From: Saururus chinensis
Lineage: Eukaryota > Streptophyta > Magnoliopsida > Piperales > Saururaceae
Direction of reading: 5' to 3'
Assembly: GCA_035235625.1 (NCBI GenBank)
Contig: CP141144.1
Coordinates: 25,479,014-25,543,013 of the forward strand
Length of the DNA stretch: 64,000 bases
Shown here one piece after another: positions 8,526-54,200 of this stretch (its first letter is position 1; every line of letters starts with the position of its first letter). The position numbers were made by a program, and so were the translations under genes. The notes under the pieces are model-generated. The model worked only from the letters and a program-made list of their open reading frames with translations, was not told the DNA's origin and searched no databases.

Positions 8526-8536
8526 TAAATTATAAA
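8526..8536. repeat. MULE target site duplication, left
   Basis: TAAATTATAAA, identical to 15,150-15,160. Eleven bases fits the 8-11 bp range of Mutator-like elements. The site is AT-rich, so chance cannot be fully excluded, but it sits exactly at both ends of the inverted repeats. Confidence 0.7.
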
Positions 8537-8890
8537 GATAATTATTAAAATAATAATAAAAAAGATAATTATTAAAATATATTATTTTGAGAAATATTTT
8601 TTAAAGTGGTGTTTATTTTAGCCACGTAGGTACCAGCTAAGTAGCTAGCGCCAGCGTAATTTTTTTATTATTTTTTAAGTTCATTTCGTCATTTAGAACG
8701 ACAAAATTGGTTTTAATATGATTTTGTCGTTCTAAACGATAAAACCTTTTATTATTTGACCCGGTTTCGTCGTTCTGAACAATGAAACTACCACACTTGG
8801 CTAATTTTGGCCTTCGATAGCGGAACAACACTAATTTTGTCGTTCTGATCGACGAAATCAGCTTAAGTTGATTTCGTCGTTCATCGTAGT
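8537..8890 (+). repeat. MULE left terminal inverted repeat
   Basis: Matches the reverse complement of 14,715-15,149 nearly throughout: the AT-rich outer part, gagaaatatttt..aaagtggtgtt, a gtagctagcgccagcg segment, then a series of hairpins of the form TTTCGTCGTTCtGAACGACGAAA. About five hairpin units are seen here, several imperfect. Confidence 0.85.
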
Positions 8891-9588
8891 TTTAATCACG
8901 ACTCCGCTCCGCCTCCAGTCGTGTTCTAGTACACTTTTTCGCTCCGTCGCCTCTGCCGACGACTTCCAGTCTGCTCCACCGCTTCTACCGACGTCCGGAC
9001 GCCGCCATTCCCGCCACCGACATCCAGCCCGCCGCTGCCCACATCGAGCCCGCTCCCGTTTCATTTTTCTAGTGCGTGTCCTTCTATATTTTTTTTTTAC
9101 CTCTTTTTTAATCATTGTAATACATCTTTTATACGTTACATTGAAGAAATTTATCTTTTGTATACTACATTGAAAAAATTTGAAGTTTTGATTGTCTCGT
9201 CATTGAGCCCTAGTTTTAGAAGTATTGTTCTCAGTTATTTTATGTGTTTTTTTTGTTTAAGATTATTGAATTGAGATGGATTTTGAGTTTTTGTTTTTTA
9301 AGATGACAAGCCTCTCAAATTTTGGAAAATGAGGAGGATTTGAGTTTTTGAACATGTTTTTATATGGTTTGTGACATTGCATGCGTTATTGCATTAATTG
9401 TGTAATTCTATTGATTAGGAAATTTGCTCATTAATATAAAGTATTCATGATATGCTTATATACTTAGTAAATCTATTAATTTCTATGCGTATATATTTTA
9501 AAAATATATTGGTTAGGGTAAATATTAGTATTAGTTTGCTTAATCTAATATTAATTTAATTTATTGTTTATAAATTAATTGAATAGAA
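8891..9588 (+). other. MULE 5' region, no gene
   Basis: A C-rich stretch (about 8,900-9,060) followed by T-rich sequence up to the transposase start. This is probably promoter and leader of the transposase. The overlapping opposite frames at 8,858-9,173 look like composition artefacts. Confidence 0.4.
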
Positions 9589-12433
9589 ATGGCAGAAGAA
9601 ATTGTTAGTTTTTTAATTAACTACGACGGACGCATAGAAGGATTATTAATTAAGAAACCGTCTACATTTGATGAATTTGAGATGCACGTAGCAAGCAAGG
9701 TTGGGTTAGATCGAAGAAGATGGAAAATTACTATCAAATGTAATATTCCATCATATGGATCGAGAATGATACTAATGTGCATAAATGATGATACATTAAT
9801 GGCTTTTATGTTTCACCACTCATGTGACAAAATTTCTTTCTAGTTATTTCTCGAAAAAGAGGCCTGAGTGACTAGTGAAAGGCGAAGTAGTTCACGTAGG
9901 AGCTCTCACAGAAGCTCACACAGGAGCTCGGATAGAAATGTGAACAATGAAAGTCATATACAAGTGCCGGTGGACGACAAAGAAGAAGGAAATTTATCTA
10001 TGACAGTAGCTTCAAATGAACGTCATAGGTCGTGTGCCCCTATTTACGATGGAAGTGGACCTACTTGGAGGTAAGGGTTGATTTAGTTGTGAATACATTT
10101 TCAATCTTATTATCCTTTAATGACAATACGTTTAGCTAAATTTTGAGATTTTGTGTGTAATATGGAAGGTCCACGACGCATGCACACGAGCCATTTAGCG
10201 TTCAAATGTCTCAAGGCGGTGCATGGTATGAAACTCAAAGTTCGATGGGCCTTCATTACCCCTACACGTATGTTGGTCATACCGATGTTGGACCATCTAA
10301 TCAGAGGTGAAATATATATTTATACATGAATTCAACTTTTTTAGGCTTACGAAATTTAATACATATGCGATGTTTATATGTAGGGGGGATATGTCTACGG
10401 TGAAGATATTGATGAGAATGAGGATAATGAAGGTGAAGATAATATTGACGAAGTAAGTGGAGAAGATTCTGATATGAATGTAGAAGGGGTTAGAGGTGAA
10501 GAAAGTGCTCAACAGATGGTTGATGGCGAGGGGGATGATGCGGTAGACAATGTCATTGCTGGGAATGATATGAATGTAGATGATGAAGAGCCGCCGTACT
10601 GTGAAGTGGAGCCACTTTATGCACACATCACAGATGAGGAGATAGATGCGGCAGTGAATTCTACAATGGATTTGGACCAACAAAATGAAGATGAGTTATA
10701 CGTTGGCCGCATCTTTGATAATAAAGAAGCATTCGTTACAGCCTTGCAGGAGTTTTTTATTCAAAATCATGTCGAATACAAGGTCGTACGAACAAATACG
10801 GCAGAGTATACAGTGAAGTGCATTGATAGCACTTGCCCTTGGAGAGTGCATGGCTCAATCAAAAGGGGTGGTGGGTCCTTTAAATTGAAGACGTACAAAG
10901 GTGACCACACATGTCGGAATGCCCAACTTAGCATAGATCATAGGCAGTGCAGTGCCTCCTTTATTTCGAAGGTCATAATGCCCGCTATCCAAGCTGAATT
11001 AACTCTCACACCAGGGGATATTATTCAAAGAATGAAGGAGAAGTATCATTTTGACATATCATATAAGAAAGCATGGGCAACAAGGAATATGACGATCAAG
11101 GCCATTTATGGAGATTGGGTAGAATCATATAAATTGTTGCCAATGTACCTAAGGGCAGTGCAAGAAGTCAATCCTGACTCCTACTACCGCTTAGAGGATG
11201 ATGTAGTACCTCGTGCAGATGGTGGCACTTGTAGGAGATTTAAATGGTTGTTTTGGGCGTTTGGGCCGTCTATAGCTGGGTTTCGACATTGCATCCCTGT
11301 GATTGGCGTTGATGCCACTCACTTGTATGGAAGATATCCTGGTGCTCTTATAGCTGCAACGACTACAAATGGAAATAATGGGTTATTTCCTCTTGCATTC
11401 GGGCTTGTCGGGAAGGAAGATGGAAACAATTGGAAATGGTTTCTAATGGAATTGAGGGATCATGTACTGATGGGCATGATGAACATCGTCATTATTTCAG
11501 ATCGACATAAGGGGCTTCAGAAGGCGGTGCCTGAGGTTCTTCTAGAGCCGGATTACTACCATCGTTATTGCACCCGTCACATAAAAGCAAATTTTAAGGA
11601 GTTCAAAAATAATACACTGACGGACTTGATTGGGGCAGCAGCTTGTGCACTCACAGTAGAAAAGTTTGATGCTAAAATGGACTTGATTGGTCAAGAGAGT
11701 CCTAGGGCAAAACATCTCCTCTTAGGAGGAGAATTGCATCCTGCACAATGGTCCCTTCCACACAGTGGTTTTATGACATTTGGCATGATGACTACAAATA
11801 TGGCTGAAAGTTTAAATAGCGTCTTGAAGGGGGCACGAGGGTTACCTATGCAGGCTTTAGTGTCAACTATCTTTTATCGGCTCATAAAATTTTTTGTTAA
11901 ACGATTTTCTGCCTCCTCTGCCATGGCCACCCCATATACTCCTAGAGTGGAAGCCATATTGAGAGAGCAAACAAGAAAAATTGGGGAGTATATAGTTAAT
12001 AGGATCAACAGGAGTCGATTTAAGTGACATCAATTCGTGCCCGCAAGGTTATGGTAAATGCTGCGATGCATACTTGTACATACAACATCCCTCAGGTTTA
12101 TGGTTATCCTTGCTCGCACCTTATCGCCGTGTGGGCAAAGCAGCGGGAGCCAATCAATGCATCATTGTTTTACACATCTTATACTTATAAAATGTGTACT
12201 CCGCAGAATTTTATTCTCCTCGTGGTCGGGAGTATTGGGAGAGGGATATACCGTTTGTGTTATACCCACCGATAGCAATAAGGCAACCCGGTAGCCCACA
12301 GTCTGTTCGCATTAGGAATACTATGGACCGCAGAACAATGGAAAGAGATGGTAGAGGAGGATATAAATGCGGGAGGTATAAACAAAGTGGGCATAATAGT
12401 AAATCATGTAGAAACCCTCCTGTTGATTGGTAA
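9589..12433 (+). pseudogene. mudrA-type MULE transposase, decayed
   Basis: Parts in order: an N-terminal ubiquitin-like/PB1-like segment (9,589-9,843); a Ser/Arg-rich linker (to 10,070); a likely exon 10,169-10,306; an acidic stretch; and the main frame 10,384-12,027. The main frame has the MuDR N-terminal zinc region (CIDSTCPWRVHG) and the transposase core (VIGVDATHLYGRYPG, ATTTNGNNGLFPLAFGLV, IISDRHKGLQKAV, YCTRHIKANF). The SWIM finger (YNIPQVYGYPCSHLIAVW) lies in another frame from 12,024, and the C-terminal knuckle (CGRYKQSGHNSKSC) in a third, up to 12,433. Lesions: in-frame stops at 9,841 and 9,865, frame changes near 12,020 and 12,190, and Tyr in place of the second Cys in both zinc motifs. 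By eye the phase also fails at the 10,306/10,384 junction. The encoded enzyme would cut and join the element ends. Confidence 0.85.
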
Positions 12434-12529
12434 ATATATAATCAACCTTTGTATTTATTATATTTTTTTAGTTACGTACGCATGTATTCCTTACGATTAA
12501 TGATATGATCTTCATCTTCCACAGATCAT

Positions 12530-14490
12530 ATGGATCATGCAGAGCCTTGTTACGAGCCAAGCCCGAGTGACACTTCTTTACTCGTAGAGTAGGAGTCACA
12601 TAGGTCTGCTGCTATTTGGAGAGGAGAGGTATGATAACTTTTTTAAAATTTGTTTTATTTGTTTTGGTTGATATAGTACGACATGTTATAATTTTAAAAT
12701 TTATTATAGGACCCCGGGTGCCTTGAGTGCACCGAATATTTTAAATATCTCCGCCATTGGCCTATAGATGAGCGTATATTACCTTATATCGAGCGAGTGG
12801 GATTCAGCCATTTCATTCATCTACAGTATGTTCGTCTCGATCGGCCTCTATTGACAGCTCTTGTTGAGAGATGGAGGAGGGAGACACAGACGTTTCATTT
12901 GTCATATGGAGAGATGTCCATCACGCTCATGGATGTGGCAGTTCTATTAGGACTCCGTATTGATGGATGTCCGGTGACAGGCACAACAAGAGGAGCTCAT
13001 ATGGATATATTAGTTAGACTTCTTGGTAGAGCTCCTCCTACTACAGTGATGTGTGGTAGCCGAGTGAGCCTACGATGGCTCTTACATGAGTTTCGTGAGC
13101 TCCCAGCCGATGCTACAGAGATAGTTATTGAGCAGCATGCACGAGCCTATATATTGCATTTACTTGGAGCCACCATATTTGCGGATACCACGAGCAACCA
13201 CGTGCATGTTTCGTATCTCTCTCTCCTTGCCGACTTTGACATGGCTGGCACTTATTCATGGGGCAGTGCTACTTTCGCATTCTTATACCGAGAGTTAGGA
13301 AAGGCATGTCAGGCCATGACCTCGGGGATTGGGGGCTGTCTGACTCTTCTTCAGGTAAATAATTGTATAATTTTACTTGGTGTTTTAGTCACGTATAATT
13401 TTTTAATTCTAATATTTGTTATCGCTATTTTATGACATAGTTATGGTCGTGGGAGCACTTACACGTCGGCCGACTAACTGCTGAGATGGGTTGCTTGGTC
13501 GAGGGTGCTCCATTAGGGGTGAGGTAGGTTGTATTTATGTTTACCACATTACTTTTTAAGCAACGTTTTATGTACATATGCTGAACTCATTTCTTAAATT
13601 TAACTCCTTAAGGTGGAATGTTCGGAAGAAGAGAACCGAAAATCAACAAGGACTCCTCCGTTTGTATAGAGGGGAGTTAGACCACCAGCTGCCATACTAG
13701 GTAATTTTATTACCGTGTTGAACTTTTTTATGTAATGAGTTTAAAAAATTTTGTCGTTATTTAAACTAACTTATCTTTATATATTGTATAGATTATTTGG
13801 CAGCCATACTCGGAGGACTTGTTGGCTGTGATACCTCCACTCTGCACTGACGGTCGAGAGATGTGGCTTTCTCGAACCCCTCTCATATGTTATGAGATTA
13901 TAGAGATGTATGTGCCAGATCGTGTAATGCTCCAGTTTAACCTGGAGCAAGGGGTCCCACCTTCTACTGTCGAGTTTGTCCATCACATCACTCGACAGGG
14001 CCGCCATATTACCGACTGGGCTATATATCATGCGTATTTGAGTGATGCACTTGTCACCTGTACTTCACGCGAGGACTTAGCAGCAGCATGTGAGTCGGTG
14101 ATTAGAGCGTCTAATGATGTCCTTCGTAGCTTGCCACTACTTCATTCGGTGATCACGGATGTTCATCGAGATTATCCTGTCGACGAGGCCGCTCAGACGC
14201 AGCCGATGCACTCTTCATGCCCTGATATTCCATCATCATCAGCAGCATATAGCTCTCCTCCAGGTTCATCATTTCCAGACACTACACATGTCACTCATCC
14301 AGATCAGATTTTATATTATAGACGACATTGGCCAGCTCGTATTATACCATTTATTACTTATGCTGAGCCGGAGCCCGAGTAGGAGCCTGACATGGAGTCG
14401 CAGCCCGAGCCCCAGTCGGAGCCAGAGCCAAAGCCACAGCCAGAGGTAGATCATGAGGAGCTCGTACACCACCGTCGAGGACGAGGTTGA
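12530..14490 (+). pseudogene. plant mobile domain (PMD, MAIN-like) gene, decayed
   Basis: Five exons joined in phase: 12530-12628, 12710-13354, 13441-13523, 13613-13700 and 13792-14490, all with GT-AG introns. Residues match the PMD family (MAIN/MAIL1, 'PP7 long form homolog'): LTALVERWRRETQTFHL, ITLMDVAVLLGL, GCPVTG, GSRVSLRWLLHEF, YSWGSATFAFLYREL, then LWSWEHL at the next exon and WQPYSEDL and LIPLICYEIIEMY-like sequence in the last. The C-terminus is a Pro/Glu repeat ending in Arg/Gly. Three in-frame TAG codons are seen: in exon 1, at the end of exon 4 and near the C-terminus (14,380). At least the exon 4 one fits a CAG-to-TAG change. In hosts PMD proteins act in the nucleus in silencing and genome stability; what they do for a transposon is not settled. 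Confidence 0.85.
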
Positions 14491-14714
14491 GGACGAGGAT
14501 GAGGACGTAGGAGATTATGATATTACTTGTGATGTATTGTATATGATGTACTTTACTTATATTTGTTATGGTGATATTCGTGATAGTGATATTTATTATG
14601 GTGATATTTGTTATGGGTGGAATGAATGAAGTTGTACATATACATCTATGTTTTGAATGAATGAATAGGGACAGGTGATAAAATTAGTTTTAAATAGTAA
14701 TTTTAAAAAAAATT

Positions 14715-15149
14715 TAATTTGATTTTGTCGTTCAGAACGATGAAATCAACTTAAGCTGATTTCGTCGTTCAGAACGACGAAATCAGTGTTGTTCCGCCAC
14801 CGAAGGGCAAAATTAGCCAAGTGTGGTGGTTTCGTCGTTCAGAACGACGAAATCAACTTAAGTTGATTTCGTCGTTCTGAACGACAAAACCGGGTCAAGT
14901 AATTAAAGGTTTCGTCATTTAGAACGACGAAATCGTATTAAAACCAATTTCGTCATTTAGAACGACGAAATCGTATTAAAACCAATTTCGTCGTTTTAAA
15001 TGACGAAATCAATTTAAAACAAAAAAAAAGCCACGCTAGCGCCAACTACTTGGTTGGCGCCTGCGTGGCAAAAACGAACACCACTTTGGGAAATATTTCT
15101 CAAAGTGATATATTTTGGTAATTTTTTTTATTATTTTAATAATTTTTTC
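14715..15149 (+). repeat. MULE right terminal inverted repeat
   Basis: Inverse partner of the left TIR. It contains about seven hairpins of the type TTTCGTCGTTCaGAACGACGAAA between 14,721 and 15,010, several perfect, so it has more units than the left end. The stretch 14,491-14,714 between the PMD stop and this repeat is simple tgatattngttatggtgata sequence with no gene. Confidence 0.85.
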
Positions 15150-15160
15150 TAAATTATAAA
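15150..15160. repeat. MULE target site duplication, right
   Basis: TAAATTATAAA, identical to the copy at 8,526-8,536. It marks the right end of the element. Confidence 0.7.
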
Positions 15161-29570: not shown

Positions 29571-29815
29571 TTGATGGCTGTTTTTGCGAAGGGATACATT
29601 ATTTGAAACTTCATGTTTTGATAAGATTAATTGTATTTTGATTTTTTTGATGAGATACATGTATATGGATGAATGGATGTGAACCTAGGTTTTGGTGAAG
29701 ATGTATATGACAAAGTTACATTAGATTTTTGTGATGAATTTTAGCTCAATGTTTTGATTAGATCAAATTAAGTGTTTATATTGTGGATACGTTCAAATAT
29801 TATTCATATTATATT

Positions 29816-30790
29816 CTGGAATTGCTCTCACAGTGGGCGCCCACTGACAGATTACATGGAAGAATACAGTGGGTGCCCACCAAGAGAGCAAATGGTTTTA
29901 TTTGAGCCTCGACATTGTTTCTGGAATTGCTCTCTCTGTGGGTGCCCACCAACAGATTTACATAGAAGAATATGGTGGGTGCCCATCGAGAGAGTAGATG
30001 GTTTTATTAGAGTCCTGGTATCATTTCTGGAATTGCTCTCATGGTGGGTGCTCCCCAACAGATTACATGGAAGAATATGGTGGGTGCCCCCAGAGAACAT
30101 ATGGTTTTCATTGGAGGCCCCGACAATGTTTTTGAAATTGCTCTCAAGGTGGGTGCCCCCCAACATATTACATGGAATCATATGGTGGGTGCCCACTGAG
30201 AGAACATATATTTTTTATTGGAGCCCCGATAATGTTTCTGGAATTGCTCTCATGGTAGGTGCCCCCAACAGATTACATGGAATCATACAGTGGGTGCCCA
30301 CTAAGAGAGCATATGGTTTACATTTGAGCCCCGACAATGTTTCTGGAATTGCTCTCATGGTGGGTACCCACTAGGAGATGAGTTGTTTTTCATTTGAGCC
30401 CGACAATGTTTCTGGAATTGCTCTCACAGTGGGGGCCCATCGCTAGATTACATGGAATCATACAATGGGTGCCCACCGGGAGATCAGCTATTTTTCATTG
30501 AAGGCCGGACATTGTCTGGAATTGCTCTCATGGTGTGGGGCCCCCGATAGGTCACATAGAAGCATACGGTGGGTGCCCACTAAGAGAGCATATAGTTTTC
30601 ATTGGACCGATAATGTTTCTGAAACAGAACTCACAATGGGTGCCCCATGATAGATTACATGGAAGCGTACGGTGGGTGCCCCATGACATATTACATAGAA
30701 GCATACGGCGGGCACCCACCAAGAGAACATATATTTTTGATTGGAGGTAATGGACCCCGGCAATGTTTCATTGGAGCCCCGTATAATTTG
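29816..30790 (+). repeat. tandem array, about nine units of roughly 100 bp
   Basis: The word ctggaattgctctc (or a close variant) recurs at about 29,816, 29,931, 30,029, 30,131, 30,238, 30,341, 30,411, 30,516 and 30,618. Each unit also has one or two near-palindromic ggtgggtgcccac motifs, agattacatgga and agagcatatggtttt. Period is 98-115 bp, except one short unit of 70 bp. A 200-codon plus-strand frame crosses several units but is explained by the repeats. Confidence 0.85.
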
Positions 30791-41933: not shown

Positions 41934-44010
41934 TGTAACACCCCGACCCGCACCACCTGACCCGAACCGGGGGTTAGATCGGAAGACACAATCGGAGTGT
42001 CAAAAATTAGCGGAAAAATTAAAACCGACTGACCAGGAGCTGCAGACGCTGAGTGCGAGAGTCGTAACGTTCATATGCGCACTATGGAGCTTTAACGTTC
42101 CATTGTGCGTAGATCAGAATAAATCTAATTTTATAACTAATTTGGATCGGGCCAACGTTATTTTATCGTTGGTTGCCTACGTACATATTGGATACCATCT
42201 CTGACGTTATTCCAATACGATCGGATCCGAACGTAGTTCTGCCTAATGGCTAATACATTTACCAAACATCAGAAAATCATATACAATAAAATACGTATAC
42301 GTTATATCTGAATGATTCGTTCGGAATCCAACGGAAATCTTATCAGTCATCGGAGTTAAATGAAAGCCAATATATCAGAAAACACACATCTCACGTAGGT
42401 GAGAAGAATACTAACAAAACACACATCCCATTCTATCATAGAGCAGAGCAGAACACACTACAGAACCTGTTGGATCATATCAGATTTTATCCGACCACAC
42501 TGGTCATATCAGATCAGAGTATGTTACGTCATAGTAGAGAGCATTTAAGATCACAACAGAATAAATCAAGATGTGCAGTCATATAAAGCATATTAAACTA
42601 GAAGGTCAAGAAAGCGTACTCCCCTCCAATTTCGAAAGTGGCAATGTTCGGAGTTGCTTGTTTCCTCGGAGCGTCTGCCCTTTTTGATCCAGAGACTGTG
42701 GCCAGAACCTTCTGTAACTTTGGATTACTTTACCCTCACAGTGCCCGTAGGCAGCGGACAGAACCTCCCCTTACACGGAGACATTTTTACCCTCACAGTG
42801 CCCGTAGGCAGCGGACAGAACCTCCCCTTGTCCGAAGACACTTTTCCCTTCCCGTGCCCGTAGGTAACGGGCAGAACCTCCCCTTACCCTTGGGATGTTT
42901 CTCTCACCTAACATTGATAATTCGAGGAGTGGATACTTTCATTGCGTTGCTCACCCTCGAATTAGCTAGGGAGGCCTCTTGAATGACTCTAATCGGACTT
43001 AAAATGAGTAAGAAATGAAGAACGGAAGATTAGAAAACGTGGGAGAATTTCCCTTACCCGGAGATATTTTACCCTTTTCGCGCCCGTAGGCGGCGGACAT
43101 AACCTCCCCTTGGCCCGGGACGTTTCCCCTATATAGAGTTGCTAACTTGAAAAATTGACGCTTCCATTGCGTAGAGCACCCTCGATTTAGCTAGGAACGC
43201 ATTTTGAACGGAAGAAAACGGACGCAGAATGACTCCAGAAACTTTCCCGGAATACTGAACGGAATGAACTATTTATAAGAGATGGGCGTGCGAGCGGACG
43301 GAAGAAAGGGAATACGCGCGCACAGACGCGTGCCACGTGTCACACGGTGAGTGGACTGAAAAAGTGGTCGGCGCACGTGACGCGCGCGTCACGCGCGCGC
43401 CGTCACGGCAGGTGCGGCGAGCGCTGCCGCGCCGCGCGTCTGACGCGCGACGCGCGCGTCCGCCACGCGTCCCGCGCGCGCGTCGCGCGGTCAGCCGCGC
43501 GATCGCGCGGGACCCGCGTCGCGCGGACGGCCGCGATCGCGCGGCGCCGCGTGACCCGCGGCTCTGCGGCTCGGCTCTGACGCGGCTCGGCTCCGGCTCG
43601 ACTCGGCTGGATGACGTCAGCTATTCTGTCTTTTTCTGAATATTTTATTATTATTTTAATTAAACACAATTCCAACTTCAAAACGCGATAACTTTTTATC
43701 CCGAAGTCGGAATCGTACGTTCTTAGTACCGATGGACTCGTATTGACGAGCCCTTCAAAACTAGACCCGACATGGGTAGGTTATCTCGCACTTTTAAAGT
43801 GGGTCCCGCCCATGTGGCACATTTCCCGAGGTCGTAACTTTCGTTCCCGACCTCCGTTTTGAGTGTTCTTGGGTGTGTTGTGCTCGTTACTTCGAGCTCT
43901 ACCTAGATACAGAGATTTCACCTAATGAAACCCCGTAACCCTGATATTAAATTACCAAATTACCCTTAACCCCCCCCGGGTTAAGCATAACCGGAAGACG
44001 GGTTGTTACA
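41934..44010 (-). repeat. LARD 3' LTR
   Basis: Runs from tgtaacaccccgacccgcac to ggttgttaca on the plus strand. It contains a duplicated gtgcccgtaggcagcggaca block (42,740-42,900) and a CpG-dense tract (43,310-43,610). Overlapping frames in it are not genes. Confidence 0.9.
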
Positions 44011-47698: not shown

Positions 47699-49737
47699 TG
47701 TAACACCCCGACCCGCACCACCTGACCCGAACCGGGGGTTAGATTGGAAGACACAATCGGAGTGTCGAAAATTAGCGGAAAAATTAAAACCGACTGACCA
47801 AGAGCTGCAGACGCTGAGTGCGAGAGTCGTAACGTTCATATGCGCACTATGGAGCTTTAACGTTCCATTGTGCGTAGATCAGAATAAATCTAATTTTATA
47901 ACTAATTTGGATCGGGCCAACGTTATTTTATCGTTGGTTGCCTACGTACATATTGGATACCATCTCTGACGTTATTCCAATACGATCGGATCCGAACGTA
48001 GTTCTGCCTAATGGCTAATACATTTACCAAATATCAGAAAATCATATACAATAAAATACGTATACGTTATATCTGAATGATTCGTTCGGAATCCAACGGA
48101 AATCTTATCAGTCATCGGAGTTAAATGAAAGCCAATATATCAGAAAACACACATCTCACGTAGGTGAGAAGAATACTAACAAAACACACATCCCATTCTA
48201 TCATAGAGCAGAGCAGAACACACTACAGAACCTGTTGGATCATATCAGATTTTATCCGACCACACTGGTCATATCAGATCAGAGTATGTTACGTCATAGT
48301 AGAGAGCATTTAAGATCACAACAGAATAAATCAAGATGTACAGTCATATAAAGCATATTAAACTAGAAGGTCAAGAAAGCGTACTCCCCTCCAATTTCGA
48401 AAGTGGCAATGTTCGGAGTTGCTTGTTTCCTCGGAGCGTCTGCCCTTTTTGATCCAGAGATTGTGGCCAGAACCTTCTGTAACTTTGGATTACTTTACCC
48501 TCACAGTGCCCGTAGGCAGCGGACAGAACCTCCCCTTACACGGAGACATTTTTACCCTCACAGTGCCCGTAGGCAGCGGACAGAACCTCCCCTTGTCCGA
48601 AGACACTTTTCCCTTCCCGTGCCCGTAGGTAACAGGCGTAACCTCCCCTTACCCTTGGGATGTTTCTCTCACCTAACATTGATAATTCGAGGAGTGGATA
48701 CTTTCATTGCGTTGCTCACCCTCGAATTAGCTAGGGAGGCCTCTTGAATGACTCTAATCGGACTTAAAATGAGTAAGAAATGAAGAACGGAAGATTAGAA
48801 AACGTGGGAGAATTTCCCTTACCCGGAGATATTTTACCCTTTTCGCGCCCGTAGGCGGCGGACATAACCTCCCCTTGGCCCGGGACGTTTCCCCTATATA
48901 GAGTTGCTAACTTGAAAAATTGACGCTTCCATTGCGTAGAGCACCCTCGATTTAGCTAGGAACGCATTTTGAACGGAAGAAAACGGACGCAGAATGACTC
49001 CAGAAACTTTCCCGGAAAACTGAACGGAATGAACTATTTATAAGAGATGGGCGTGCGAGCGGACGGAAGAAAGGGAATACGCGCGCACAGACGCGTGCCA
49101 CGTGTCACACGGTGAGTGGACTGAAAAAGTGGTCGGCGCACGTGACGCGCGCGTCACACGCGCGCCGTCACGGCAGGTGCGGCGAGCGCTGCCGCGCCGC
49201 GCGTCTGACGCGCGACGCGCGCGTCGCGCGGTCGGCCGCGCGATCGCGCGGGACCCGCGTCGCGCGGACGGCCGCGATCGCGCGGCGCCGCGCGACCCGC
49301 GGCTCTGACGCGGCTCGGCTCCGGCTCGACTCGGCTGGATGACGTCAGCTATTCTGTCTTTTTCTGAATATTTTATTATTATTTTAATTAAACACAATTC
49401 CAACTTCAAAACGCGATAACTTTTTATCCCGAAGTCGGAATCGTACGTTCTTAGTACCGATGGACTCGTATTGACGAGCCCTTCAAAACTAGACCCCACA
49501 TGGGTAGGTTATCTCGCACTTTTAAAGTGGGTCCCGCCCATGTGGCACATTTCCCGAGGTCGTAACTTTCGTTCCCGACCTCCGTTTTGAGTGTTCTTGG
49601 GTGCGTTGTGCTCGTTACTTCGAGCTCTACCCAGATACAGAGATTTCACCTAATGAAACCCCGTAACCCTGATATTAAATTACCAAATTACCCTTAACCC
49701 CCCCGGGTTAAGCATAACCGGAAGACGGGTTGTTACA
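47699..49737 (-). repeat. LARD 5' LTR
   Basis: Partner of 41,934-44,010, about 99% identical. It is shorter mainly by a deletion of about 30 bp within the CpG-dense tract. The primer-binding site is directly inside. Confidence 0.9.
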
Positions 49738-52786: not shown

Positions 52787-54049
52787 TCAGGCCCAAAAGG
52801 TGAGAGGAGACGGATCATGTAGCTGATAGTGTGTGAGCTCTGTTCCCGACCATTCTGATGAGAAGTCTTCCTCTGTATAAAACAAGCCCAGATCCATATA
52901 GTTAGTACAAATATTGTCTGTCAATGAATCCTCTTCAATTTCTTCAGAAGTCTTTTTCTGATCCTCAGCTTTGTCATCCAAATCATTCATCAGCAAGAAA
53001 CCCACATCAGAACAATCGCAGAGGGAATCAATCAAAGCCTCCCTTCCCAAAGTCATTGCCTGATCATGAACTCTCTCCTCAGAATCACCCATCAAGTCCC
53101 CAATTTCTATGTAACCTATTTTAGGAATATCATCACAGAAGGAGGTATTCAGATAAGCCATCTCTGTCTGCACAGCTATTTCTCCCTCATTCTGATCATC
53201 CACTTCAAAATCTTGAACAAAATCCCCATCTTCCAGAAAACCCACGTCCATGAACTCACGGGCCGATTCTCTCAAACAACCCTTCTCTAACTCAGCTGTG
53301 TTCTCCAAGCCCTTATCAAAACCACATCCATGACAGTCCGCATGTACAACATCCGCAGTGATAGCACTCGGAGCTAAAGATGAGTTGATGATTTCTTCAT
53401 AATCAAGAATATCGCCGCTTTCAGGTTCTATTGGGGCCGAAGATGAGTAGATGATTTCTTCAAAATCAAGAACACAACTTCCAGTTTCTTGCAGCTCAAT
53501 CAAGCTCTCCGGATGAAGATTTGACCTCTTCTGCAACAGCTCAATTACTTTTCTCACCCCACCCAGCTCGGAATCAATTCGACCCATCACCTTCTCCAGA
53601 TCCCCCAAGCCCAACCCATCTAAACCGACCTCGCCACATACCAACCGAAGCAGACGAGCCAATCGGCTCTCCTGGTCGTGTTCTTGAAACCCCTTCAAGT
53701 AGGACTTGTATCTGGTGACCTTGTTCTTGAGAAGGATCGAAACCCCCTCGTGCTTCGCCTTCTGGTTCCCACATTCTTGGCAATCTCTGAACTTCCGGAC
53801 CAGGGCGAGGCAGGATTCTCTGTCCTCCGGCCAATGCGCCTGCAACCCAAGGGAAGGGGAGTCGCAGATCAAGAACCCATATGTGCCGTTGAGAATGCAG
53901 AGCTCTCCCAGCTTCTTTTTCATAGCGGCGACCTGTTTCTCGACCCAGGCCAGCCCCCAGCCTCCATCGCCGGTCGTCTTCCGCCTCTTGAATCTGGAAG
54001 TAGAGGCCTCGGACGGACCCTCCTGCAAGCCCCTCGCCATGAAGCCCAT
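52787..54049 (-). CDS. divergent type I MADS-box-like protein, 420 aa
   Basis: Single-exon frame of 420 codons. I start it at the ATG at 54,049 (context GTCGCCATGG) rather than at the upstream in-frame ATG at 54,163, because the extra 38 residues look like translated CT-rich leader. Residues 19-90 resemble a type I MADS domain: RFKRRKTT (19-26), KKKLGELCILNG (44-55), then FLICDSP and HWPEDRE (72-78), as in AGL-type Mα/Mγ proteins. A stretch of about nine residues (27-35, GDGGWGLAW) seems inserted in the DNA-contacting part. Then come a charged helical region, two DFEEII/DYEEII repeats and a long acidic tail suggestive of an activation region. Such proteins are nuclear transcription factors, often of gametophyte or endosperm. 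The family call is mine from motifs; an unrelated plant protein remains possible. Confidence 0.55.
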   Translation of the reverse strand: MGFMARGLQEGPSEASTSRFKRRKTTGDGGWGLAWVEKQVAAMKKKLGELCILNGTYGFLICDSPSLGLQAHWPEDRESCLALVRKFRDCQECGNQKAKHEGVSILLKNKVTRYKSYLKGFQEHDQESRLARLLRLVCGEVGLDGLGLGDLEKVMGRIDSELGGVRKVIELLQKRSNLHPESLIELQETGSCVLDFEEIIYSSSAPIEPESGDILDYEEIINSSLAPSAITADVVHADCHGCGFDKGLENTAELEKGCLRESAREFMDVGFLEDGDFVQDFEVDDQNEGEIAVQTEMAYLNTSFCDDIPKIGYIEIGDLMGDSEERVHDQAMTLGREALIDSLCDCSDVGFLLMNDLDDKAEDQKKTSEEIEEDSLTDNICTNYMDLGLFYTEEDFSSEWSGTELTHYQLHDPSPLTFWA

Positions 54050-54200
54050 GGCGACGGACGAGACTGAATGAGAATCGCAAAGAGAACGTAAGTGGAGTTG
54101 AGACGGAGAGAGATGAACAAGGAAAAAATGAGAGAAGAGAAAGAGCACGGAGGGGAGAAACATGGGGCGGGTTTTATTTAAGTTCGGTGCGCGAAGTAGC
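54050..54200 (-). promoter_or_regulatory. core promoter and leader of the MADS-like gene
   Basis: On the minus strand a TATA-like TTAAATAAAA (about 54,174-54,183) is followed by a CT-rich leader (ctttctcttctctcat) up to the ATG at 54,049. The spacing of about 130 bp is normal for a plant 5' UTR plus TATA. Confidence 0.45.

Follow-up and report, generated by a model that had tools for sequence, protein, structure and literature searches.

A PMD gene under purifying selection lies behind the mudrA transposase gene in an abundant Mutator-like element family of Saururus chinensis

The stretch of DNA analyzed in this work (hereafter, the window) covers 64 kb of the Saururus chinensis genome (contig CP141144.1, positions 25,479,014 to 25,543,013 of the forward strand; 516 Mb in 11 contigs for the whole genome) and embeds a Mutator-like element (MULE) carrying, one behind the other and in the same orientation, a mudrA transposase gene and a gene for a plant mobile domain (PMD) protein. 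This copy is a pseudogenised member of an abundant two-gene MULE family. The mudrA-then-PMD order is a trait of the family, recurring across the genome beyond chance, and in the lineages that spread, purifying selection has acted on PMD with a strength close to that on mudrA. The abundance of the family, the fixed order, and the selection measured on PMD indicate that the element depends on the PMD protein.

A first look at the genome retrieved 1724 candidates for the 5' terminal inverted repeat (TIR) region, 2740 for the PMD profile PF10536, and 4662 for mudrA; these are candidates rather than confirmed copies, and the best 40, 117, and 83 of them, respectively, were scored. The mudrA loci considered below are the best 150 of 1741 candidates, with a protein identity to the window of 88–94% (100% for the window itself); the search of the genome with the MULE domain PF10551 listed at least 150 matches. 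Every fourth of the 150 mudrA loci was taken, irrespective of PMD, which gave a sample of 38 loci (34 newly retrieved and four that also belong to the loci described below). PMD lies directly downstream of mudrA in 33 of them (29/34 and 4/4), including L057, where the spacer and the mudrA end are deleted, and L082, where exon 2 is reduced to its first 76 residues. As for the others, a 1.4-kb insert (C9:14413306) precedes PMD in L067, a deletion has left the 3' part of PMD in L053, L061 ends in a stub, truncated within PMD exon 1, and both L051 and L076 are truncated within mudrA.

The same arrangement emerged from the loci chosen by their PMD sequence. All but one of the 30 belong to the family of the window element (L011 represents another repeat family), and mudrA sequence is found upstream and in the same orientation in 27 of these 29, the exceptions being L018 and L026. 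Moreover, five places besides the window were chosen by their TIRs, the proximity of PMD being known beforehand for two of them; L040, L042, and L043 harbor both genes, L039 is interrupted in PMD intron 1, and neither gene is present in L041.

Two of these loci are internal-deletion derivatives: L026 (C9:28250297-28253854) has kept PMD and the 5' TIR and has no mudrA, and L041 (C10:36935042-36944041) has kept the ends alone.

The selection acting on the two genes was evaluated by binning codon variants according to the number of copies carrying them, using 27 distinct copies. Variants carried by one copy are presumed to have arisen mostly after insertion and serve as an internal control, the mutation spectrum being the same. 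Four loci with internal deletions (L025, L026, L028, and L034) and L011 were excluded from the family alignment and from the counts derived from it. L042, which is the same as L023, was excluded from the variant, start/stop, and splice counts and is counted twice in group A of the pairwise omega values, and the truncated L018 was excluded from the 27-copy, start/stop, and splice counts and included in a count of PMD exon 2 over 56 copies. Codons with two or three changes compared to the majority codon were left out of both variant counts, and columns with few letters were left out of the 27-copy one.

In PMD exons 1–5, the ratio of nonsynonymous to synonymous variants per site (N/S) is 1.02 for one-copy variants versus 0.25 for shared ones (Fisher p = 5e-14); the corresponding values for the C-terminal part of mudrA are 0.81 and 0.28 (Fisher p = 5e-7). 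The N/S of shared PMD variants is 0.14 in exon 2 and 0.34 in exons 3–5, and in the exon 2 of 56 copies it is 1.18 for variants carried by one copy, 0.52 for those carried by two to four, and 0.12 for those carried by five or more. Furthermore, the pairwise nonsynonymous-to-synonymous rate ratio (omega) between subfamilies A and B is 0.30 for PMD, at a synonymous divergence (dS) of 0.43, and 0.26 for mudrA, at a dS of 0.26; inside the subfamily of the window, it is 0.56 for both genes, with one locus counted twice. A codon model applied to the whole tree of PMD exons 1–5 returned an omega of 0.44, terminal decay included. Since shared variants are constrained while one-copy variants look neutral, we infer that the spreading lineages need the PMD protein, whether in cis or in trans, and that it helps their propagation. 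An earlier note, made from the letters of the window, had regarded PMD as a stable second gene of this lineage rather than a one-off capture; both the gene order in the other copies and the purifying selection between them support this view.

The whole MULE extends from 8535 to 15149 on the + strand of the window, its ends being set by the comparison with related copies and by the flanking 9-bp target site duplication TAAATTATA, located by flank comparison at 8526–8534 on the left and at 15150–15158 on the right. Its 5' TIR (348 bp, 8535–8882, + strand) and its 3' TIR (418 bp, 14732–15149, − strand), each defined by alignment to the other, are identical in 298 out of 335 aligned columns (89%, gaps excluded). 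The alignment of the TIRs and the Pfam matches confirm that one pair of long TIRs encloses both genes, in the same orientation and with separate exons, as the earlier note had read; its 11-bp duplication, instead, has to be corrected to 9 bp, because two extra bases match by coincidence at the decayed ends. Judging by eye, a CCC end is present in all five related copies compared and a GGG start in two of the five; in the window, the outer GGG is AAG and the CCC is TTC, so that the ends have decayed to AAG...TTC. Exact 9-bp duplications were seen by eye in four of the six copies inspected, i.e., the window, C1_22.9, C9_9.7, and C4_6.2, those of three related copies being AATTTTGAA, TTTTAAATT, and TTTCTATTT; no target duplication was found by the same inspection for C5_5.9 and d_C10_36.9. 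With a target duplication in the range of 8–11 bp, long TIRs, and a MULE transposase domain, the window element has features typical of a MULE.

The mudrA gene (9589–12433, + strand) is pseudogenised. It consists of N-terminal exons starting from 9589, whose limits were inferred solely from open reading frames (ORFs) and GT/AG dinucleotides, and a large last exon (about 10385–12433). Three Pfam families score above their cut-off, that is, the MULE domain PF10551 (E = 4e-18; 66 bits, cut-off 27.6), DBD_Tnp_Mut PF03108 (E = 5e-11; 42.5 bits, cut-off 25), and PF00872; the C-terminal SWIM/CCHC zinc finger was also looked for, and SWIM reached 17.3 bits versus a cut-off of 19.6 on a fragment cut by frameshifts. 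The main frame, 10474–12027, stops at 12027, and the coding sequence continues in two other frames as far as 12433, the frame shifts falling between 12018 and about 12200. The TAA stop codon at 12431–12433 is kept in 26 out of 27 aligned copies.

The PMD gene, also on the + strand, has six exons and codes for a protein of about 600 residues with its own ATG at 12530, which is kept in all 27 aligned copies. Exon 1 (12530–12628) is interrupted at codon 21 by a stop in the window copy. Exon 2 (12710–13354) represents the domain core (PF10536, E = 5.4e-49) and is followed by exons 3 (13441–13523) and 4 (13613–13700), the splice sites of which are kept in sister copies; exon 5 (13792–14033), shortened by a deletion of about 300 bp, and the remainder of exon 6 (14034–14510, the end being approximate) were delimited by comparison with sister copies. 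The PF10536 profile scores 167.7 bits in exon 2 and 41.3 bits in exons 5–6, compared to a cut-off of 34.9. The C-terminus of the protein, in exon 6, is a Glu/Pro-rich repeat stretch followed by an Arg-Gly tail. Over the 27 copies, the five acceptor sites are lost in 7 cases out of 135 and the five donor sites in 2 out of 135.

Exon 2 (12710–13354) also gives a weak match, below the cut-off, with DUF1985 (E = 0.0019), and the PMD sequences of L083 and L084, two loci of a different repeat family described below, match it with E = 2e-4 and 4e-4, again below the cut-off. DUF1985 is a plant domain known from other transposon-linked genes.

The earlier note had described the element as complete in its plan; the copy of the window is a dead one, mudrA being frameshifted and PMD bearing stops and the deletion, a gap of about 300 bp compared to sister copies that removes the end of exon 5, intron 5, and the start of exon 6. 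An open PMD frame, of 624 codons, is present in one of the 27 aligned copies (L015), the window and 25 others being broken. None of the 27 has both genes open over the aligned stretch; the mudrA part of L015 contains a stop. Out of 20 PMD stops common to at least two copies, 18 are located at CAG, CGA, or TGG codons. The shared stops look recurrent, since most of them are shared by copies standing apart in the tree, apart from the stop at codon 604, which marks a whole subfamily. C>T and G>A changes account for 45% of the 740 one-copy variants, as expected for decaying and, presumably, methylated copies.

The two genes are separated by a spacer of 96 bp (12434–12529, + strand), which is apparently non-coding according to the length differences between subfamilies and to the conserved TAA and ATG at its borders. 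MULE transposase–PMD fusions have been reported for grasses and Amborella (Ikeda 2017, in the part of the paper available; PMC5418596), and a possible splice pair exists here too, the GT at 12430 being present in 26 of the 27 copies and the AG at 12524 in 21; this might suggest that splicing across the spacer yields one fusion protein. Nevertheless, the joining of this pair, the one obvious pair and the one considered, reads TGA immediately; the AG is lost in 6 copies out of 27, whereas the acceptors of PMD are lost in 7 cases out of 135. Moreover, the mudrA stop and the PMD start are conserved as reported above, and the spacer length varies by 3 and 4 bp between the subfamilies of the aligned copies, so that no common frame crosses it. 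A simple fusion was thus rejected, and a fused product of any kind appears highly improbable; mudrA and PMD apparently represent two separate ORFs, because the spacer has no common frame, the splice pair gives a stop, and its AG is missing from some copies.

The ends of the element embed an array of CG-rich palindromic half-sites. A motif scan allowing up to one mismatch to TTTCGTCGTTC / GAACGACGAAA retrieved 6 matches in the 5' array (8696–8882) and 11 at the 3' end (14723–14996), and 17 of the 18 matches of the window fall inside the MULE, with 0.58 expected by chance in 64 kb. The 11-bp half-site TTTCGTCGTTC often occurs in head-to-head pairs and carries, when perfect, two CG dinucleotides; in five copies, including that of the window, there are 14–22 half-sites per element, confined to the outer 500 bp and with none in the middle. 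This terminal array might be a binding site for the transposase, for PMD, or for a partner.

As to what the PMD protein might do for the element, the reading that we prefer, at a probability of about 0.5, is counter-silencing through mimicry or capture of a host complex. The host proteins MAIN and MAIL1 silence transposable elements and bind the phosphatase PP7L, according to the available parts of two studies (PMC5418596, PMC7156037), and this is why we favor it. The MULE-encoded PMD would enter, or mimic, the MAIN/MAIL1-PP7L complex and relieve the repression of the element's own genes, in a manner comparable to VANC in VANDAL elements; given the short spacer, mudrA and PMD might share a promoter or a transcript, and the CG-rich terminal array could serve as a docking site for the transposase, PMD, or the partner of PMD. 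The same idea in its most specific form, i.e., an anti-silencing factor dedicated to this task, which would bind the TTTCGTCGTTC / GAACGACGAAA arrays by itself or through a partner, hijack the MAIN/MAIL1-PP7L module, and be made with mudrA from one compact transcription unit, is rather unlikely to hold in all its parts. If true, one and the same domain would serve the transposon and the host on opposite sides.

The main rival is that PMD is a transposition accessory, acting in end binding, insertion, or nuclear entry and unrelated to silencing, in line with what has been proposed for mudrB in maize MuDR. Order and orientation shared with mudrA and a similar constraint on the two genes speak for it, as does the existence of other two-gene MULEs (maize mudrB is apparently required for integration; PMC6446971, as far as the available text goes), and the terminal palindromes may well be a joint site of transposase and PMD; on the other hand, the PMD proteins described in the accessible parts of the literature work in the silencing or expression of host loci and not in recombination (PMC5418596, PMC7156037), and several MULE groups appear in the accessible table rows without a listed PMD (PMC6446971), so that transposases have no general need for it. 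We regard an accessory role as possible but doubtful. The least probable explanation, which can be practically dismissed, is that PMD was captured once and is carried by linkage as a passenger without function. The capture of host sequences by MULEs is indeed frequent (partial texts of PMC5418596 and PMC6446971), and all but one of the 27 aligned copies, that of the window included, have a broken PMD, but the low N/S of shared variants (0.25 versus 1.02; 0.12 for variants carried by at least 5 of 56 copies) led us to reject it, and splice sites, start codon, and frame have been kept across subfamilies at a synonymous divergence of about 0.43. Self-limiting factors occur in other transposons, and PMD might serve the host or restrain the copy number as a repressor acting on its own element. 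Although the repression of transposons by host PMD proteins (PMC5418596, PMC7156037, both in part) would agree with this, the present data contain no sign of repression and the family is abundant, with at least 150 mudrA places at 88–94% identity as the best 150 of 1741 candidates; self-restraint is thus improbable.

Several points weigh against the dependence of the element on PMD and against its counter-silencing role. Exon 6 is weakly constrained (shared N/S 0.70, p = 0.24), and in exon 1, which has few sites, constraint is undetectable (1.14); in addition, recurrent C>T changes can place neutral variants in the shared class. Some copies lack PMD or both genes (both genes are missing from L041, mudrA from L018 and L026), hence an element can do without either of them in cis. 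The copies all come from one genome and, for mudrA, from the best 150 of 1741 candidates. A shared mudrA-PMD transcript is a guess, the selection could stem just as well from a function in transposition, in the choice of targets, or in nuclear import, and the tie between the MULE PMD and MAIN/MAIL1 is drawn by analogy at the level of the domain family (PF10536). Structural comparison did not help: the single-sequence AlphaFold model of PMD exon 2 was useless (pLDDT 39), and a sequence search of the PDB retrieved no relative and two chance-level matches (E 1.7 and 1.8). Lastly, the dS between the subfamilies is lower for mudrA than for PMD, and the trees of the two genes differ in the placement of L014 and L016, which points to an exchange between subfamilies rather than to a simple, single inherited unit.

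The same L016 differs from L013, L020, and L027 by 1–2% in the first 200-column window of the mudrA part (11304–12300) and by 14–23% in the windows of the PMD part (12500–14500), where it groups with the subfamily of the window element. Such a mosaic of subfamilies suggests recombination or conversion close to the 3' end of mudrA.

A second repeat family with PMD is represented by L083 (C2:58992500-59001500) and L084 (C5:4432500-4441500), which are 95% identical over 4.4 kb and harbor a PMD about 40% identical to that of the MULE, followed by minisatellite-like arrays. About 2 kb behind the PMD of L083, on the opposite strand, lies an ORF with the MULE domain PF10551 (85.6 bits), and a 167-bp block of it recurs at 98% identity in L084, at the edge of the retrieved sequence; the matching piece of L084 hit no Pfam family, and no element ends were found for either locus. 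Since the block sits in the same relative place in both, PMD and transposase may form one tail-to-tail element, similar to the antisense PMDs of Dupeyron 2019; L083 suggests, in turn, that a second and different MULE-like family of the same genome bears PMD. Host MAIN/MAIL genes were not found among the PMD loci retrieved, the L011-like ones belonging to this second repeat family and several of L087–L096 being unplaced PMD copies.

The window also contains, at 29814–30712, a minisatellite with GGTGGGTGCCCACC-type units of about 105 bp, which gives the impression of resembling the arrays flanking PMD in L083/L084. A 57-bp tandem array consensus occurs twice, at 42729–42887 and 48494–48652, 5.8 kb apart and in the same orientation; the two arrays perhaps lie in the two long terminal repeats of one retrotransposon. 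An open frame of 458 residues at 52787–54163 (− strand) had no Pfam match at E 0.01.

The presence of PMD in plant MULEs is already in print, and so is, as a speculation, an anti-silencing role. According to the accessible parts of these papers, Ikeda 2017 placed MULE PMDs in the PMD-C clade, with fusions in grasses and Amborella, and suggested an anti-silencing use (PMC5418596); Dupeyron 2019 listed several groups of plant MULEs with PMD "in most" members, in sense or antisense (PMC6446971); and a 2021 review restated the counter-silencing idea for transposon PMDs (PMC8616336). In the literature searched, which comprised no preprints and few subscription papers, no selection test on a MULE-encoded PMD was found; as far as seen, this test is a new line of evidence, and the present analysis also adds the gene architecture and the palindromic array restricted to the element ends. 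PMD is a biochemically uncharacterised domain common to host silencing proteins and transposons, and this family supplies, for functional work, a deep set of copies and, in the terminal array, a candidate target on the DNA.

The closest counterparts are the PMD-carrying plant MULEs of Dupeyron 2019 (groups 42 and 45–50; e.g., MULE-Monocots, MDR, MUDRAVI2, and MUDR), which likewise combine transposase and PMD in one element and for which 9-bp duplications and long TIRs, as here, are each given in several of the accessible rows; their PMD is in sense or often in antisense, whereas in the aligned copies of the window family it is in sense and close behind mudrA (PMC6446971). In the fusions of Ikeda 2017, also MULEs bearing a PMD for which anti-silencing was proposed, host PMD-C genes were captured twice and the products are fusion proteins, as far as the available text describes them; here, there are apparently two ORFs, the stop of the first, the spacer, and the start of the second being conserved (PMC5418596). 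VANDAL elements, too, are MULEs with a second gene and short motifs in their non-coding parts (PMC6446971, PMC8616336, in part). Their second gene is VANC, with anti-silencing activity, while in our case it is PMD, and anti-silencing is proposed by analogy. Maize MuDR (mudrA/mudrB) and Abermu are two-gene MULEs as well; to our knowledge, mudrB is unrelated to PMD. Abermu shares the GGG...CCC ends with the window family and has AT-rich 9-bp duplications, but its ORFR is antisense, unlike the sense PMD described here, and a word search of the available text of the Abermu paper returned no PMD (PMC9168764). Finally, Pack-MULEs resemble this family in that MULE ends enclose a gene of possible host origin; they carry gene fragments and no transposase, and a Pack-MULE identity was discarded since mudrA lies upstream in 27 of the 29 PMD loci, so that the family combines a transposase with a whole, constrained gene.

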